A DNA stretch of 63,347 bases from Aquincola sp. (lineage in GTDB: Bacteria > Pseudomonadota > Gammaproteobacteria > Burkholderiales > Burkholderiaceae_C), in NCBI GenBank assembly GCA_022841885.1, contig JALHQP010000009.1:1-63347 (forward strand), written 5' to 3'. A program made the position numbers and the translations under genes. Positions 45,684 to 55,412 of the stretch are shown one piece after another. A model generated the notes under the pieces. That model made no database searches. It saw only the letters and a program-made list of their open reading frames with translations, and had not been told where the DNA came from. The stretch's first letter is position 1, and every line of letters begins with the position of its first letter.

Positions 45684-48573
<2,890 letters not shown>

Positions 48574-48582
48574 CCCGAAGGA

Positions 48583-48618
48583 GCCATCGGCCGCCGCGCA
48601 CGCAGCGCGGCCGATGGC
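48583..48618 (+). repeat. inverted repeat downstream of argG
   Basis: GCCATCGGCCGC (48583-48594) and GCGGCCGATGGC (48607-48618) are a perfect 12-bp inverted repeat with a 12-base spacer. It starts 10 bases after the argG stop. No T-run follows. Its 3' arm merges with the shared element that begins at 48613. Confidence 0.65.
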
Positions 48619-48662
48619 CCATCGTGGCGATGCGCGGCGGGCCCGTGCCCGCAACACTGGCG
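48613..48662 (+). promoter_or_regulatory. copy A of the shared 50-bp element
   Basis: Blocks GATGGCCC, GGCGATG, GCGGC and GCAACACTGGCG with spacers of 5, 1 and 12 bases. The same blocks with identical spacing occur at 51861-51910. By my count 37 of 50 positions agree. The element ends 32 bases before the start of the small membrane protein gene. Confidence 0.75.
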
Positions 48663-48694
48663 GCACCTTGATTCACCCGCTGCCGGAGTCCGCC

Positions 48695-48868
48695 ATGCCC
48701 GTCGTCACCCCCACCCGCCTGCCCTTGGTCCAGACCCTGCGGCAGCACGCGGCCACGCTGCGCAGCGACCCTGCACTCGGCGCTGTCGTGGTGGCCACGC
48801 TGTGCGCCGCCGGCCTCGTCGTCGCGCTCGGTCCGCTGCCGGTGCAGACCTTGCTCAGCTGCTCCTGA
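48695..48868 (+). CDS. small single-pass membrane protein
   Basis: A 57-residue protein from ATG 48695 with GGAG 6 bases upstream. One hydrophobic segment lies near residues 30-48 (LGAVVVATLCAAGLVVALG), after a basic-polar start; the end is LPVQTLLSCS. I do not recognise it. The shared 50-bp element in front and its position directly before the large LuxR-type regulator suggest that it is a real, regulated gene rather than a spurious frame. Confidence 0.55.
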   Translation: MPVVTPTRLPLVQTLRQHAATLRSDPALGAVVVATLCAAGLVVALGPLPVQTLLSCS

Positions 48869-48969
48869 GTCCGCGTTTCGACAGGCCGATGCCACGGCCT
48901 GTCGCGGTCGTGCGCGTTTCATCGCATGCCGGTGGCCCGCGCAGGGCGCGCCTCGCACAATGCGCGCCC

Positions 48970-51783
48970 ATGCCCGATGCCGTCTTCGCCGAGCCCCGCC
49001 CGCCGCGCCACGCGCTGGCACCCTGGCGAGCCGCTGCAGACAGGCGCGCTGCGCGGCCCCCAAGGCACAATCATGAGCCCGAACAGCCGCGCTCGCGTGC
49101 CGTGCTCAGCTTCGCCCGCACCAAGATCCAACCGCCGCGCCCCCGCGCGCTGGTCGACCGGCCTGTGCTGCGCGAGAGCCTCGTGCGCGCGTTGTCGACG
49201 CAGCCGCTGGTGCTGATCACCGCCGCTGCCGGCTTCGGCAAGACCTCGGTGCTGGCGCAGGCCCTGGCCGCCCTGCCTGCGGGCACGGCCCAGGCCTGGG
49301 TTTCCTGCGACACCGGCGACCACCCACTGCAACTCTTCGCCTGCCTGGTTGCAGCGCTCGAACCGTTCGACCTGCCCTGGCGCGTTGCGCCAGATGCGCT
49401 GATCACCGCCGCTGCGGCTGCCGACGACACGCCCGCCGGGCGCGCCAGGACCCAACGTGCGATCGCCGTCGAACTGATCAACGCGCTGGACGCCTGCGAA
49501 GTACCGCATGGCGTGATCGCGGTCGACGACCTGCACCGAATCGAGCATCCCGGTGTCTACGAATTCATCGATCAGCTGCTCGAGCGCATGACGCCCCGCT
49601 GGACCCTGGCTATCGCCAGCCGTGAGCTGCCGCCAATCGCGCTGGCCCGCCTGCGCGCGGCCGGCGAGGTGTCCGACTTCAGCCTCGATGCGCTGCGCTT
49701 CGATGCCGACGAGACGCGCGCGTTGGCGGCCACCGTCGGCCTCGGCGCCGACGCAGCCCAGGCCCTGCAAGAGCGCACAGCCGGCTGGCCCGCCGGCCTG
49801 CGCCTGGCGCTCAACGTATTGAAGTCGACACCCGGGGCCAGCCTTGAAGGGTCGGCGCCGCTCATCGACCGCCAGGTCTTCGACTTCCTTGCCACCGAGG
49901 TGCTCGACCGCCTGCCCACCGAGCTGCGCGAATTTCTGCTCGCCACCTCAGTGCTGCCCGAGCTCACTGCCTCGCGCTGTGCCGCGCTCACTGGCGATGA
50001 GCGCGCGGCCGAACGCATCGATGCCATAGAGCGCGCCGGCCTTTTTGCCCAGGTCGTCGAAGCGCCCGAGCCGACGCTGCGCCTGCACGACCTGTTCCGC
50101 GACGCGCTCGAACACCGCCTGCGACGCGAGCGACCCGACGCCTGGCCCGAGTTGCTGCGCCGAGCCGCCACGCAGGAGCCCGATGCGCTGCGTCGCATCG
50201 GCGGACTGATGCGCGCCGAGGCGTGGCCCGAGGCCGAGGCTGCACTGCTCTGCGTCGGCGAGTCGCTGCTCATAGACGGCGACAACGCCGTCGTCGACAC
50301 CCTGCTGGCGCGCTTTCCCATCGAGCGCCGCACGGCCTCGGGTGGGATGCTGTTTCTCGGCTCCAAGCTGGCCTGGACGCGTTGGGATTGGCCAGCGATG
50401 CGCGACGGCGCCGTTGCTGCCGCCGAGGCCTACCGTCGCGCGGGCGATGCACGCAGCGAAGCCCTAGCCCAGTCCTACCTCGCACTGGCCTTGGCCAGCA
50501 CCGGCCGCGTCGACGAAGCGCGCGCCTTGGCCAATGCGCTGCTCGCGAACCCCGCGCTCGAAGACCTCGCTGCCGCGCGCGCGCTGATGGCGCTCGCCTG
50601 GATTGAGTTCAGCCATGGAGATCAGCGGGCCATCGCACCGCTGTGGTCGCGCATGACGCAGCACCTTGAACAGACGCCGGACGTCGTCGGCTGGTACGAG
50701 TGCATGCCGATCCCCTCCTACGCCAATCTGGCCGGCATGCGAGCGCCGCTTCTGCGCTATGTGCGCGCTGCGCAGCGCCGCTGGCCCGAGCGGCCTTCGC
50801 CAGCGCGCGGCATGTGTACGGTGATCGAAGGCCTGCTTCACCTGTGGGCCGATGACTTGGTGGCCGCCGAGGCCTGTGCCGCACAGGCCTCCGACGACGC
50901 GCGCTGGCTCGCCCGACCACCCAATCTCGAAGCCTTCGTCACCCTGCTGCCCGCCCTGCTGGCCGCCGTGCGGGGCCGCAGCGGCGAAGCGCAGGCCCTG
51001 GTGCAGCGGCGCATCAACGAGGTCATGCAGAGCGGCGAACCGGCGCGCATCGGCCTGTACCGCGGCGTCTTCGTCTACGCCGCGCTGCGTTGCGCCGCTG
51101 CGGCCGACGACATGGCGGTCGTGGCTCAGCGCGCGGCCGAGTTGCAGGCCGCGATGCGCACGCCCTCCCCCGCGTTGCCCACGGGTCTGGCACGCCAGTA
51201 CAGCACGGCCGGGCGCGCCTACGCGGCCCTGGCCGCAGGAGATGACGTTGCGGCCTGCATGGCGTGGCAGGACATGATCGACCGCGAGCACGAGTGCGAC
51301 CACTACGCGCAAGTGCCCGAGGCCCGGCTGCGCCTGGCCGACGCCAAACTGCGCGCGGGCCACCCGCTGGCCGAAGGCGCCGCGCCGCTGGTCCCGCTGT
51401 TCGAGCGCATCGCCGCCAGCGGCGAGATCGGCCTGCTGCGCATGGCCGGCCCCTCCACGCTGGCCCGGCTCGCCGCGGTCAATTGGGAGGGCCGCCTGGC
51501 GGACAACACCGTGCGCGCGCTGCGCCGCTGGGCTGGCACGGCAACCGAACCGTCGGTCGCGCGCGATGCACCCACAGCCGCCCCCACCCTTGCGGGCGGC
51601 CTGTCCGAGCGCGAGCACCAGGTCTTGCAGCGCATCGCGGCCGGCGACAGCAACAAGCTGATCGCGCGTGAGTTCGACCTCTCGCCCCACACGGTCAAGC
51701 GCCACGTCGCCAACATCCTCGACAAGCTCGACCTGCGCTCACGCGGCCAAGCCGCAGCCTGGTTCCACGAGCATCACGGCTAG
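48970..51783 (+). CDS. MalT-type LuxR family ATP-dependent regulator
   Basis: A 937-residue STAND-class activator. An AAA/NB-ARC ATPase at the N terminus (AAAGFGKTSVL, near residue 84-95; AVDDLHRIEHP as Walker B), winged-helix and a long TPR-like superhelix, then a C-terminal LuxR helix-turn-helix, GLSEREHQVLQRIAAGDSNKLI and HTVKRHVANILDKLDLRS. Such proteins are switched on by a small ligand and ATP. Start is uncertain: ATG 48970 gives about 44 residues before the conserved part; GTG 49102 (MLSFARTKIQPP) would be closer to the family. Flanked by genes with the shared 50-bp element. Confidence 0.9.
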   Translation: MPDAVFAEPRPPRHALAPWRAAADRRAARPPRHNHEPEQPRSRAVLSFARTKIQPPRPRALVDRPVLRESLVRALSTQPLVLITAAAGFGKTSVLAQALAALPAGTAQAWVSCDTGDHPLQLFACLVAALEPFDLPWRVAPDALITAAAAADDTPAGRARTQRAIAVELINALDACEVPHGVIAVDDLHRIEHPGVYEFIDQLLERMTPRWTLAIASRELPPIALARLRAAGEVSDFSLDALRFDADETRALAATVGLGADAAQALQERTAGWPAGLRLALNVLKSTPGASLEGSAPLIDRQVFDFLATEVLDRLPTELREFLLATSVLPELTASRCAALTGDERAAERIDAIERAGLFAQVVEAPEPTLRLHDLFRDALEHRLRRERPDAWPELLRRAATQEPDALRRIGGLMRAEAWPEAEAALLCVGESLLIDGDNAVVDTLLARFPIERRTASGGMLFLGSKLAWTRWDWPAMRDGAVAAAEAYRRAGDARSEALAQSYLALALASTGRVDEARALANALLANPALEDLAAARALMALAWIEFSHGDQRAIAPLWSRMTQHLEQTPDVVGWYECMPIPSYANLAGMRAPLLRYVRAAQRRWPERPSPARGMCTVIEGLLHLWADDLVAAEACAAQASDDARWLARPPNLEAFVTLLPALLAAVRGRSGEAQALVQRRINEVMQSGEPARIGLYRGVFVYAALRCAAAADDMAVVAQRAAELQAAMRTPSPALPTGLARQYSTAGRAYAALAAGDDVAACMAWQDMIDREHECDHYAQVPEARLRLADAKLRAGHPLAEGAAPLVPLFERIAASGEIGLLRMAGPSTLARLAAVNWEGRLADNTVRALRRWAGTATEPSVARDAPTAAPTLAGGLSEREHQVLQRIAAGDSNKLIAREFDLSPHTVKRHVANILDKLDLRSRGQAAAWFHEHHG

Positions 51784-51810
51784 GCGCGGCGCGGCCGTCG
51801 CCTTCCCAGC

Positions 51811-51852
51811 CGGGCCATGGCCCGAACGGGCCATGGCCCGGGCGGGCCCGCC
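51811..51852 (+). repeat. tandem palindromes between the regulator and hemerythrin genes
   Basis: CGGGCCATGGCCCG occurs twice (51811-51824 and 51827-51840), each a perfect 14-bp palindrome, 16 bases centre to centre, followed by GGCGGGCCCGCC (51841-51852), a 12-bp palindrome. They lie just after the regulator stop and before the shared element. They could be an operator array or a terminator of the regulator mRNA. Confidence 0.7.
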
Positions 51853-51860
51853 ACACACGC

Positions 51861-51910
51861 GATGGCCCTTCAAGGCGATGTGCGGCACCCCTCGAATCGC
51901 AACACTGGCG
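51861..51910 (+). promoter_or_regulatory. copy B of the shared 50-bp element
   Basis: GATGGCCC, GGCGATG, GCGGC and GCAACACTGGCG with the same spacing as copy A at 48613-48662. It ends 47 bases before the hemerythrin gene start. The last block could overlap a -10 region, but no standard promoter hexamers are certain. Confidence 0.75.
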
Positions 51911-51957
51911 CCCTGCCCGGAGCAAGGTGCCCCGGGCCCGATCCAGGAGCCCGCGCC

Positions 51958-52686
51958 ATGCCTTTCGCCGATTCGTCCGCCGCCCCCGCCAAGGCCGCAG
52001 CCGCCGCCCCGCGTATCGACCTCTACAGCAGCATTCACAAGGCGCTGCGCCTGTTCATGACCGACACGCTGGTGCGCGTGGGCCGCCTGGACACCGGCGA
52101 CGCCGACGAGCTGGCCGCCACGCTGGCGCAGCTGCGCTCGCTGCTCGAACTGTGCCGCACGCACGTCGCGCACGAGAACGAGTTCGTGCACGCCGCGATC
52201 GAGGCGCGCCGCCCCGGCGCCAGCCAGCGCATCGCCGCCGAGCATGTGGAGCACCTCGACGCGATCGCCGCCCTCGAGGCCGAGGTCGCCGCGCTGGCCG
52301 CGCTGCCGCGCGAGCCGGCCGCGCAGCGCCTGTACCGCCACCTCGCGCGCTTCGTCGGCGAGAACTTCGAGCACATGCATGTCGAGGAGAGCTCGCACAA
52401 CGCAACGCTGTGGTCGCTCTACAGCGACGCCGAACTGGTCGAGATCCACCAGCGCATCCTGGCCGCGGTCGACCCGGCCGAGATGGGCCTGGTGCTGCGC
52501 TGGATGGTGCCGGCGATGAGCCCTGCCGAGCGCGCCGAGTTGCTGGGCGACATGCAGCGCCAGCTGCCCCCCGAGGCAATGCGCGGCGTGATCGACACCG
52601 TGCGCCCGCACCTCAACGACAGCGCCTGGGGCAAGTTGGCGCGCGCGCTGAACCTGCCGATCGCCCCCGGCCTGACCACGCGCTGA
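51958..52686 (+). CDS. hemerythrin-domain protein
   Basis: A 242-residue cytosolic protein with a hemerythrin-like four-helix bundle: His ligands in SSIHKALR (about 27), CRTHVAHENEFVHAAI (about 63-73), AEHVEHLDAIAAL (about 93) and FEHMHVEESSHN (about 140-149). Such non-heme diiron proteins bind oxygen or NO or help repair iron-sulfur clusters. The C-terminal 90 residues (LRWMVPAMSPAERAELLGDM) are a helical extension. ATG 51958 with AGGAG 8 bases upstream. First of a same-strand run with GST, VOC and cytochrome genes. Confidence 0.88.
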   Translation: MPFADSSAAPAKAAAAAPRIDLYSSIHKALRLFMTDTLVRVGRLDTGDADELAATLAQLRSLLELCRTHVAHENEFVHAAIEARRPGASQRIAAEHVEHLDAIAALEAEVAALAALPREPAAQRLYRHLARFVGENFEHMHVEESSHNATLWSLYSDAELVEIHQRILAAVDPAEMGLVLRWMVPAMSPAERAELLGDMQRQLPPEAMRGVIDTVRPHLNDSAWGKLARALNLPIAPGLTTR

Positions 52687-52702
52687 CGAGGCAACCCGAC
52701 CC

Positions 52703-53374
52703 ATGAAGCTCTACCACCACCCGGCCTCCACCACGAGCCGGCCCATCCTGCTGCTGGCTGCCGAGGCCGGCCTCGCGCTCGACCTGCAGGTGGTCGACCT
52801 GTTCGCGGGCGAGCACCTGCAGCCGGCCTACGCAGCGATCAATCCGAACCGCCTGGTGCCGGTGCTCGAGGACGGCAAGTTCCGCCTGACCGAGCACGCG
52901 GCGATCATGAAGTACCTGGCCGAGAAGGCCGGCTCGCCGCTCTACCCGCGCGCGCTGCAGGCGCGTGCGCGCGTCGACGAGCGCATGGACTGGGTCAACA
53001 CCCAACTCTGCCGCGACCTCGCCTACGGTGTCGTGTACCCGCAGATCTTTCCACCGCACCGGCGCCGCAGCGACGAGGCCCAGCAGGCCACGCTGCAATG
53101 GGGCCTGGAGCGCGCCCGCGGCTGGATCGAGGTGCTGGATCGCCACATGCTGGCCGGTCAGCCCTTCCTGTGCGGCGACGCGATGACGCTGCCCGACCTG
53201 CAGGCTGCCTGCTTCGTCGCGCTGGGCGAGACCATCGGCTGCGACTACGCCGCGCAGCCGAACCTGCGTCGTTGGCTCACGCGGATGAAGGCACTGCCGA
53301 GCTGGACCAAGGTGCACTCGGTGATCGACGGCTATGCCGCCACGCTCGACCGTGCGTCGATGCTCTCGCTGTGA
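52703..53374 (+). CDS. glutathione S-transferase
   Basis: A 223-residue cytosolic GST. The thioredoxin-like N-terminal domain starts MKLYHHPASTTSRP (catalytic Ser/Tyr region) with the cis-Pro in RLVPVLEDG, and the all-helical C-terminal domain follows from about residue 88. Substrate unknown. It begins 16 bases after the hemerythrin gene, so the two are likely co-transcribed. Confidence 0.9.
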   Translation: MKLYHHPASTTSRPILLLAAEAGLALDLQVVDLFAGEHLQPAYAAINPNRLVPVLEDGKFRLTEHAAIMKYLAEKAGSPLYPRALQARARVDERMDWVNTQLCRDLAYGVVYPQIFPPHRRRSDEAQQATLQWGLERARGWIEVLDRHMLAGQPFLCGDAMTLPDLQAACFVALGETIGCDYAAQPNLRRWLTRMKALPSWTKVHSVIDGYAATLDRASMLSL

Positions 53375-53382
53375 GGCCCGCG

Positions 53383-53874
53383 ATGATCCGCAAGCTGCAC
53401 CATGGCGCCTTCCGCTGCCGCGACTCCGAGGCCACGCGCCGCTTCTACGAGGACTTCCTGGGCCTGCCGCTGGCCGGCGCGCTGCCGATCCGCCAGACGC
53501 AGACCGGCCGCCCCACCGACACGCTGCACACCTTCTACCGCCTCGGCGACGGCTCGTTCATCGCCTTCTTCGAGGCGCCGGACCTGCCCTTCGAGTTCCG
53601 GCACCAGCACGACTTCGACCTGCACCTTGCTCTCGAGGTCGACGCCGACACGCTGCGCACGATGATGGCGCGCGGCCGCGCCGAAGGTATCGAGGTGCGC
53701 GGCCCGTCGGATCACGGGTTCATCGACTCGGCCTACTTCCGTGACCCCAACGGCTACGTGGTCGAGCTGTGTGCCAAGCGCGCCGGCCACGACGAGGCGA
53801 TGGACCCGCGCCTGAACGGCGCGCGCAAGACCCTCGACCGCTGGACCGCGACGCGCGAGCTGGTGAGGCCCTGA
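53383..53874 (+). CDS. VOC superfamily protein (glyoxalase/bleomycin-resistance type)
   Basis: A 163-residue protein with two beta-alpha-beta-beta-beta modules: metal ligands are probably His in KLHHGAFRC, Asp/Glu in FDLHLALEV and Glu in NGYVVELCAKR. The fold is shared by glyoxalase I, dioxygenases and resistance proteins; the substrate cannot be told. Its stop overlaps the next start (TGATG), giving translational coupling with the diheme cytochrome gene. The C-terminal tail carries DPRLNGARKTLDRWTATREL, absent from short relatives. Confidence 0.85.
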   Translation: MIRKLHHGAFRCRDSEATRRFYEDFLGLPLAGALPIRQTQTGRPTDTLHTFYRLGDGSFIAFFEAPDLPFEFRHQHDFDLHLALEVDADTLRTMMARGRAEGIEVRGPSDHGFIDSAYFRDPNGYVVELCAKRAGHDEAMDPRLNGARKTLDRWTATRELVRP

Positions 53875-54842
53875 TGAAATCCTGGCGTGGCCTGCTGGCG
53901 TTCGCCTGCGCGCTCCTGGTCTTCGCGGACCAGGCGCGCGCGGCCGAGCCGCCGCGCACGCTGCGTGAGACCGGCTTCTTCGACGCGTCGAGTCCCAAGC
54001 TGCCGTTCTCGCCCCAGTACCCGCTGTGGTCCGACGGCGCCGACAAGCAGCGTTTCATCGCGCTGCCGCCGGGCACGGCGATCGATGCCTCGAACCCCGA
54101 CGCCTGGGACTTCCCGCGCGGCACGCGGCTGTGGAAGACCTTCACGCACGGCGGCCGGCCGGTCGAGACACGCCTCATCGAGCGCCAGGCCGACGGCGCC
54201 TGGCAGTTCGCTGCCTACGTCTGGGACGCCGAGGGCCGCAGCGCCGAGCTCGCCCCGCCGCGCGGCACGATACTCGTCGTGCCCTCCGCGCCCGGCGGCC
54301 GCTACGTCGTGCCAGGCCGCGGCGACTGCCTGGCCTGCCACGGCGGTGCGCCGTCGCCGGTGCTGGGCTTCGCCGCGCTACAGCTCGCGCCCGAGTTGCG
54401 CGCGCTGGTCGAGCGCGGCTGGTTGCGCGGGCTGCCGCACGAGCTGCTGGCCACTACACCGCGCATCGCCGCGGCGTCTTCCGTCGAGCGCGCCGCGCTC
54501 GGCACGTTGCACGGCAATTGCGCGCACTGCCATCACGCAGGCCCCGGCCGCGTGCCGCTGCGCCTGACGCTGCAGCAGCGTGTCGCCGACCCCGAGGTCA
54601 GCGCTGCCGAAGTGCTGCGCTCGATGGTCGGCGCCCGCAGCCGCTACCAACCGGACCCGCAGGCCGACGCCCGCATCGTCGTGCCGGGCGATGCGGCCGC
54701 CAGCGTGCTGCTGCGGCGCATGCGCTCGCGCGACCCGCGCGTGCAGATGCCGCCGCTGGGCACCGAACACGCCGACGAGCAGGCCCTGGCCCTGCTCGCT
54801 CACTGGATCAGCCAGGACCTCTCCCGCCACAAGGAACCTTGA
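53874..54842 (+). CDS. exported diheme c-type cytochrome-like protein
   Basis: A 322-residue secreted protein: signal peptide cleaved after ARA (about residue 24), and two heme sites C-x-x-C-H at residues 152-156 (CLACH) and 216-220 (CAHCH). The N-terminal half ([31 protein letters not shown]) is characteristic of a group of Shewanella SO_2930-like proteins of unknown role. It probably passes electrons in the periplasm. Starts by TGATG overlap with the VOC gene; followed after 3 bases by a cytochrome c. Confidence 0.82.
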
Positions 54843-54845
54843 CCC

Positions 54846-55412
54846 ATGAAGACCGCCCTCCTCCCCGTGACCGCTGTCGCCGGCTTGCTGCTGCTCGCCT
54901 ATGTCGGTGCCGCCGGCGCACAGACCGCCATGACCGTCGAGAAGGCCGCGCGCGGCAAGTACCTCGTCGCGACCTCAGGCTGCATGGACTGCCACACCCC
55001 GTTCAAGATGGGACCCAAAGGCCCCGAGCCCGACATGAGCCGCATGCTGTCGGGCCACCCGCAGGACCTGAAGATGCCGCCCGTGCCTGCACTGCCGCCA
55101 GGCAGCCCCTGGGTCATCATCGGCGCGGGCACCAACACCGCCTGGGCCGGGCCCTGGGGTGTGAGCTTCACCGCCAACCTGACGCCGGACAAGGAGACCG
55201 GCCTGGGCGACTGGACGGCTGACGACTTCAAGAAGACGATCCGCACCGGCCGCCACCTCGGCCGCGGTCGCGAGATCCTGCCGCCGATGCCGATCCCGGT
55301 GTACAGCCAGATGACCGACGAGGACCTCGAGTCGATCTTCGCCTACCTGCGCACGCTCCCGGCGATCAAGAACCGCGTGCCCGAGCCCTGGGCGCCCACG
55401 GCAGCCAAGTGA
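54846..55412 (+). CDS. monoheme cytochrome c
   Basis: A 188-residue periplasmic cytochrome: signal peptide ending AGAQ, one CMDCH heme site (Cys46, Cys49, His50) and an axial Met probably in ILPPMPIPVYSQMTD. The second half looks like the small c-type domain of quinol-dehydrogenase subunits. It follows the diheme protein by 3 bases, and the two may work as partners. Last of the plus-strand run; convergent with the SGNH gene (1-base gap). Confidence 0.85.
   Translation: MKTALLPVTAVAGLLLLAYVGAAGAQTAMTVEKAARGKYLVATSGCMDCHTPFKMGPKGPEPDMSRMLSGHPQDLKMPPVPALPPGSPWVIIGAGTNTAWAGPWGVSFTANLTPDKETGLGDWTADDFKKTIRTGRHLGRGREILPPMPIPVYSQMTDEDLESIFAYLRTLPAIKNRVPEPWAPTAAK

Follow-up and report, generated by a model that had tools for sequence, protein, structure and literature searches.

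In a stretch of 63,347 nucleotides from Aquincola sp. (contig JALHQP010000009.1), which we call the window, two copies of a 50-bp element flank the gene for a large MalT-like regulator of the LuxR type, and a hemerythrin gene follows the second copy. We consider it highly probable that the element is an activator-dependent promoter and that it defines a regulon of regulators of this family (large ATP-binding LuxR regulators [LAL]), to which hemerythrins, c-type cytochromes, and other genes would belong. The neighboring genes very probably form part of a previously undescribed gene-control circuit. This reading rests on what the comparison shows: the conservation of the element, the fixed spacing of its blocks, its co-occurrence with the regulator, and the conservation of the helix-turn-helix (HTH) domain of the regulator.

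Conservation of the element upstream of hemerythrin genes

A sequence-only reading of the window had picked out the two copies as four sequence blocks separated by constant spacers. Both copies lie on the forward strand, exactly where that reading had placed them (Table 1), and match the four-block pattern with 0 mismatches; when the 50-mers were compared side by side, they agreed at 37 of 50 positions, as had been counted. The pattern was not found, even with up to 3 mismatches, in 100 dinucleotide shuffles of the window. At the same threshold, the whole source assembly (4.08 Mb, 240 contigs, 97.5% complete) contained it at two places only (control, 0), both at this locus rather than at random genome positions. 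A pattern refined on the bacterial family found the same two sites only (control, 1), and copy 2 matched it with 0 mismatches. The 3' 12-mer, GCAACACTGGCG, was unremarkable by itself, occurring 14 times with up to 2 mismatches against an expectation of 14.5. Thus, the significance rests on the combination of blocks.

For comparison we used 399 genomes of the same family, the source genome included. A looser core pattern (3 mismatches) matched in 30 of them, mostly at scattered positions. By coordinate comparison, the matches in two relatives (G034 and G233), like window copy 2, precede hemerythrin genes. The G034 match sits between a homologue of the window regulator (41% identical) and a divergent hemerythrin gene, and its entire 50-mer can be aligned to that of the window with the spacing unchanged. 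The match in G233 lies directly before the hemerythrin gene.

Hemerythrin homologues (E ≤ 1e-10) were present in 85 of the 399 genomes. We scored the 330 bp upstream of each of 96 hemerythrin matches from 95 sources (G197 gives two), with alignments shorter than 90 amino acids dropped. The best element score was 17 to 25 of 25 in 38 cases and 12 to 16 in 58. Among the controls, internal stretches scored 12 to 17, as did the reverse strand, except for 6 element-positive cases with 18 to 21. With the refined pattern, the minimum number of mismatches was 0 (20 matches), 1 (15 matches), 2 (3 matches), or 6 to 10 (58 matches), with none at 3 to 5. The fixed block spacing before 38 of the 96 matches supports the earlier proposal of a promoter that carries a site for a regulator.

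Column counts were taken from 37 of the 38 sites, one being omitted because its flank was too short. The consensus reads ATGGCYC, C-T-TY, GG-SCGATG, 20 variable bases, and RAnACTG; its core is ATGGCYC-N4-RRSCGATG, 21 nt, and AnACTG. There are 11 invariant positions (2, 3, 4, 7, 16-19, 41, 43, and 45), and the last three are A41, A43, and T45 in 37 of 37 sites. The spacing between the predicted operator and AnACTG was 21 nt in all 31 cases in which the latter was found within 0 to 40 nt. Conservation over the wider site is mirror-like, with positions 1, 2, 4, 6, and 7 pairing with 18, 17, 15, 13, and 12. A test for a direct repeat of the MalT-box type showed GATG repeated 16 bp apart.

With just two copies in the source genome, the likeness of the two intergenic regions could in principle reflect chance or a common origin by duplication, without function. 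We give this explanation next to no weight. The blocks are conserved in 22 genera while the spacers have diverged, and at up to 1 mismatch the element has 84 sites in 40 of the 399 genomes, compared with 1 site for a backwards control. Family-wide conservation, site counts, and the co-occurrence described below refute it.

We also placed the element on a hemerythrin tree (94 of the 96 rows; two shorter than 150 amino acids were omitted). The element label changes 8 times on this tree, compared with about 30 times when shuffled, and well-supported branches force at least 3 changes. Thus, the element is clustered on the tree yet has been gained or lost more than once. By eye, some hemerythrin genes that lack the element (L107, L113, L116, L124, and L131) have a different upstream motif, CTTAAG-N-ATT..TTAG, which is partly repeated and looks like the site of another regulator.

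The palindromes that had been reported beside both copies are real, and inverted-repeat arms were found at both (Table 1); those at copy 2 include the perfect palindrome. At copy 1, the second arm overlaps the element, and its 3' end is GATGGC. The 18-bp palindrome near copy 2, ATGGCCCGAACGGGCCAT, recurs without change in G034, between its divergent genes, and is likely an auxiliary operator. Single half-sites (ATGG[CG][CT]C) are also frequent: the 200 bp upstream of the elements hold 61 in 7,321 bp (32 and 29 in the two orientations), whereas the element-negative cases hold 2 in 11,600 bp, with about 4 expected from shuffles made within 20-base blocks. At least 15 of the 61 are located 21 to 23 bp upstream of the element.

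The regulator and its distribution

The C-terminal HTH of the regulator matches PF00196 (GerE) with 61.8 bits, compared with a cut-off of 23.5, and also matches NarL structures. Near the N terminus we read a Walker A-type sequence, AAAGFGKTS, characteristic of the NTPase part, and residues 17 to 356 match the MalT structure PDB 8bob (E 2.6e-25). Pfam AAA_16 reached 28.7 bits, below its cut-off of 32.6, and the MalT equivalog model NF003420 reached 184.3 bits over residues 10 to 482 against a cut-off of 537. Judged by its NTPase and GerE HTH, the protein is a member of the LAL (MalT-type) family, and by these scores it is MalT-like but not MalT. Searches of Pfam, NCBIfam, and the PDB gave no clue to the inducer.

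A homologue of the regulator (E ≤ 1e-40; at most two scored per genome) was present in 39 of the 399 genomes. The element and a full-length regulator occurred together in 38 genomes (Fisher 1.4e-49), the element only in G046 and G104, and the regulator only in G387. In G104 the C-terminal part of a regulator lies at a contig edge, adjoining its element, and in G387 the element is present with two mismatches (L105). Within 12 mixed genera, from each of which five genomes were sampled, element and regulator agreed in 59 of 60 genomes, and 0 of 20,000 within-genus shuffles gave agreement as high. Thus, kinship alone is insufficient to account for the association, since the agreement holds inside genera where presence varies. 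Regulator presence near the hemerythrin genes was judged in fetched stretches, mostly of about 10.7 kb (seven of 15 to 17 kb, ten of 4.4 to 9.8 kb, and the window whole). A regulator lay within the stretch in 24 of 38 element-positive cases and in 2 of 58 element-negative cases.

In the regulators at element loci across the family, the HTH is the best-conserved part, with 59 to 85% local identity to that of the window. Identity is 38 to 65% in the NTPase part and 22 to 38% in the middle, and other LuxR-type HTHs in the same scan were 37 to 54% identical to the window HTH.

A special case is G133, which has the element (two mismatches) before hemerythrin and no full-length regulator. About 5 kb from this element is a complete open reading frame (ORF) of 125 amino acids (L308:7881-8258) whose only domain is a LuxR-type HTH, which shares 80% identity with the HTH of the window regulator. 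Among the genes between the two are counterparts of window ORFs 53874-54842 (SO2930-like cytochrome, 50% identical) and 54846-55412 (cytochrome c, 67% identical).

Across a collection of 84,980 species, in which near relatives of the window may be missing, the exact pattern was found in 35 stretches, several of them from genomes among the 399. We take 32 of the 35 to be from Burkholderiales and the rest to be from metagenome-assembled genomes (MAGs) of Hydrocarboniphaga, Steroidobacter, and Bacteroidales. A regulator or hemerythrin homologue was present in 27 of the 35 fetched stretches (up to 8 kb). The Hydrocarboniphaga MAG (L301), which is of another class than the window, encodes a MalT-like regulator (32% identity, E 3e-70; HTH 55% identical to that of the window). 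The element is about 60 bp behind it, and next comes a SnoaL-like gene that shares 48% identity with a gene located behind an element in G392.

Element-carrying genomes have 1 to 5 sites each, many of them distant from the regulator. The sequence-only reading had proposed the two flanking genes as the local regulon of the LuxR-type activator. The link to the regulator is supported by the 38-genome co-occurrence, the HTH-only protein in G133, and the Hydrocarboniphaga MAG, but the distribution of sites makes the regulon wider than local.

In the source genome we also observed N-terminal pieces of further regulator paralogues on contigs C186, C90, and C62 and C-terminal pieces on C227 and C145, all at or near contig edges. 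The fragments are 54 to 62% identical to the window regulator, and the HTHs of C227 and C145 are 85% and 78% identical to its HTH. This suggests a family of paralogues with interiors similar enough to interrupt the assembly.

A proposed activator-dependent promoter

We propose that the element is a composite promoter. Its 18-bp LuxR-type operator, with 7-bp half-sites ATGGCYC and RRSCGAT around 4 bp, would be centered at about -42.5, overlapping a poor -35 sequence (aTGycg) and lying 17 bp from a weak -10 sequence (RAnACT). This register follows if A41 and T45 are taken as -11 and -7, which also places the TG of CGATG on the TG of the -35 sequence. The predicted -10 and start positions of both window copies (Table 1) derive from conservation among the relatives' sites. 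In this register the element has the marks of a class II sigma70 promoter, namely, an A at -11, a T at -7, and an operator over -35 at a fixed distance, and the sites lie before genes, are rare otherwise, and are present where the regulator is, as for a regulon of one operator.

The binder would be a MalT-like, ATP-binding LuxR regulator, either the window's own or a paralogue, with the C-terminal HTH as its DNA-binding part. Once its sensor part had met an inducer, the regulator would bind and recruit sigma70 RNA polymerase (class II activation), and the extra half-sites, often 21 to 23 bp upstream, would make binding cooperative. A hemerythrin-GST-VOC-cytochrome operon would then be under copy 2, and the short ORF would be under copy 1, perhaps together with the regulator gene, which would in that case be autoregulated. 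We infer binding, activation, start sites, operon extent, and autoregulation from sequence comparison.

Blocks at fixed spacing, weakly similar to the consensus sigma70 hexamers, might instead form a promoter for an alternative sigma factor of the extracytoplasmic function (ECF) type that travels with the cluster, with the LAL regulator acting elsewhere. We regard this as distinctly unlikely. The third block, ATGGCYC at about -51 to -45, is further upstream than a two-box sigma promoter requires, and extra ATGGCYC half-sites occur upstream in both orientations. Moreover, the last block retains A and T at the -11 and -7 places of the sigma70 -10 box, and the presence of the element tracks the LAL regulator, in G133 in its HTH-only form. 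An RNA-level leader (a hairpin or riboswitch-like structure) in place of a DNA site is very improbable. In its favor, 32 of 38 elements end 24 to 69 nt before the nearest in-frame ATG, and the partial dyad symmetry could fold. However, C occupies position 14 in 14 of 37 sites and the partner position, 5, in 35 of 37, which leaves at least 12 sites where these two bases do not pair; the 3' flanks of the two copies, when folded, are no stabler than shuffles (z 0.42 and -0.78); and the half-sites recur in either orientation. We have set both the ECF-sigma and the RNA-leader readings aside.

A further alternative is that the operator is real but belongs to another transcription factor, inherited with the cluster, and not to the LAL family. 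Co-occurrence alone cannot identify the binder. We nevertheless find this unlikely, because the association spans 38 of 399 genomes and persists within the mixed genera, the HTH is much more conserved than the remaining protein, the pairing is repeated in the Hydrocarboniphaga MAG, and G133 retains an HTH-only protein.

Several observations weigh against a LAL-controlled promoter, and the first two of them favor another factor. No regulator was present in the fetched stretch for 14 of the 38 element-positive cases. G046 carries a site with 1 mismatch but no close homologue of the regulator (best match 32%, partial; HTH 37%), although this site may be a chance occurrence. In the source genome, the five contigs with regulator fragments carry no element (background scores, 17 to 18 of 24), nor is there one upstream of the second hemerythrin homologue (C14; L185). 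These fragments include HTHs 78 to 85% identical to that of the window regulator, and a paralogue other than the window regulator may be the one that acts. Support from outside the order comes from a single MAG, in which contamination is possible; neither a regulator nor a hemerythrin homologue is present in the stretches from Steroidobacter and Bacteroidales, whose matches may be due to chance. A scan for consensus sigma70 promoters over positions 48540 to 52000 found none, which fits the proposed promoter only if it depends on an activator. As for the form of the operator, position 16, in the promoter-proximal half, violates the mirror in 37 of 37 sites, and a direct-repeat reading based on the two GATG sequences may apply. 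Perfect 7-4-7 pairs were found in only 2 cases among the extra half-sites, which weakens a strictly palindromic operator.

A more speculative idea, which we hold only tentatively, is that a single operator is shared by an entire family of MalT-like sensors. Several signals would then converge on the hemerythrin/cytochrome c promoter, and HTH-only proteins would be competitors or constitutive activators. The idea stems from the source genome, which has one complete regulator, paralogue fragments with nearly identical HTHs, and two operator sites. In other genomes, strong homologues of the regulator number one or two, and in one genome a bare HTH protein takes their place.

Among known systems, Escherichia coli MalT is likewise a large ATP-binding LuxR regulator with an activator site near -35, and the N-terminal part of the window regulator matches it. 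Here, the predicted targets are hemerythrin and cytochromes rather than maltose genes, and the equivalog score is below the cut-off. MalT binds two decanucleotides in direct repeat, according to one report (PMC6099782), whereas the element here is an imperfect inverted repeat of 7-mers. The same report describes the closest promoter that we found among the matches listed, the tetramethylpyrazine promoter of Rhodococcus jostii TMP1 with its LAL regulator TpdR. Two 7-bp inverted repeats four nucleotides apart lie at -45 to -39 and -34 to -28, one over the -35 region, and a 15-bp direct repeat, box A, was found to be essential (PMC6099782). This likeness is one of described layout; the position differs, and the TpdR promoter belongs to an actinobacterial catabolic operon. 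Lux-box and NarL-type sites are also similar in described layout, as imperfect inverted repeats bound by a GerE-type HTH, which is predicted here. NarL sites are described as inverted heptamers. The lux box has a class II position near -42.5, as proposed for the operator here. In contrast to these systems, the regulator here is of the large ATPase type and is neither an autoinducer-binding protein nor a response regulator.

Neither this operator or regulon nor LAL control of hemerythrin was found in the titles and abstract beginnings of the matches listed in our literature search, which covered subscription journals thinly. To our knowledge, few LAL operators have been defined. The comparison defines one candidate LAL site to the base, with a predicted start, binder, and target list. 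One paper (PMC3282765) describes the LAL regulators as a family that has been little studied. If our reading is true, hemerythrins and SO2930-type c cytochromes, whose roles have so far been unclear, share a control circuit, and a reporter would be a direct route to the inducer. Genera with cultured strains carry the site (Piscinibacter, Methylibium, Aquabacterium, and Ideonella).

Genes behind the elements

Table 1. Features of the window around the two element copies
Feature	Positions	Strand	Remarks
Inverted repeat GCCATCGGCCGC/GCGGCCGATGGC	48583-48618	+	Arms 48583-48594/48607-48618, 12 nt, 100%; overlaps start of copy 1
Element copy 1	48613-48662	+	Predicted operator ATGGCCC-N4-TGGCGAT, 48614-48631; -10-like AACACT, 48653-48658; predicted start ~48665
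57-amino-acid ORF with hydrophobic stretch	48695-48868	+	32 nt after copy 1; coding status uncertain
Hairpin without U-run (9-bp stem)	48879-48904	+	Between 57-amino-acid ORF and regulator; stable fold
MalT-like (LAL) LuxR-type regulator, 893 amino acids	49102-51783	+	GTG start picked from homologue comparison; C-terminal GerE HTH
Perfect palindrome ATGGCCC-GAAC-GGGCCAT	51817-51834	+	26 nt upstream of copy 2
Element copy 2	51861-51910	+	Predicted operator ATGGCCC-N4-AGGCGAT, 51862-51879; -10-like AACACT, 51901-51906; predicted start ~51913
Hemerythrin-domain protein, 242 amino acids	51958-52686	+	First gene after copy 2
GST	52703-53374	+	Probable copy 2 transcription unit
ORF that we take to be VOC-like	53383-53874	+	Probable copy 2 transcription unit
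SO2930-like c-type cytochrome	53874-54842	+	Probable copy 2 transcription unit
Cytochrome c	54846-55412	+	Probable copy 2 transcription unit

The window hemerythrin scored 25.2 bits with Pfam PF01814, just below the cut-off of 25.3. The genes from 51958 to 55412 are tightly packed, with gaps of at most 16 nt or overlaps. Hemerythrin to cytochrome c is probably one unit behind copy 2, so that 52703 to 55412 would continue the transcription unit. A homologue of the SO2930-like gene in G199 (53% identical) has its own element.

For copy 1 the assignment is less direct. The sequence-only reading had paired it with a short membrane peptide. A 57-residue ORF does follow copy 1, but among 41 genomes searched, the source genome included, no convincing homologue was found, and 37 of the others gave weak matches only (E 0.03 to 1). 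With nothing better in the 40 other genomes, we rejected the idea that a conserved target is encoded by this ORF. Copy 1 may in truth act on the regulator gene, which lies about 440 bp further on, or on a lineage-specific ORF. The stable hairpin between the two genes (-29.1 kcal/mol for 62 nt folded, z -2.6) may be an attenuator or a terminator. Hydrophobic ORFs of 50 and 39 amino acids lie directly behind elements in G192 (L263:669-818) and G046 (L232:2445-2561); they are in the size class of the window ORF and have no visible homology to it.

Across the family, 35 of the 84 sites are located no more than 330 bp upstream of a hemerythrin match. We examined ORFs behind other sites, with gene starts taken as predicted. 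Among them, Pfam identified a cupin encoded near the regulator (there are several such ORFs, of which one was scanned), an E1 dehydrogenase component, c-type cytochromes, two PEP-CTERM proteins, an outer-membrane efflux protein, a PLD-like protein, and a DAPG-hydrolase-like protein. A SnoaL-like protein (Pfam) and an SO2930-like cytochrome (NCBIfam) scored below the cut-off, lipoprotein-like ORFs were seen by eye behind some sites, and 7 of 20 scanned proteins had no Pfam family. One site in G366 is found 9 nt ahead of a second regulator gene. On the minus strand of G034:C9 (L063), hemerythrin is followed by two genes that by eye resemble the E1 alpha and beta subunits of acetoin/pyruvate dehydrogenase, hinting at a ketone-type inducer. 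The E1 match by family scan is that of a similar gene behind an element in G197.

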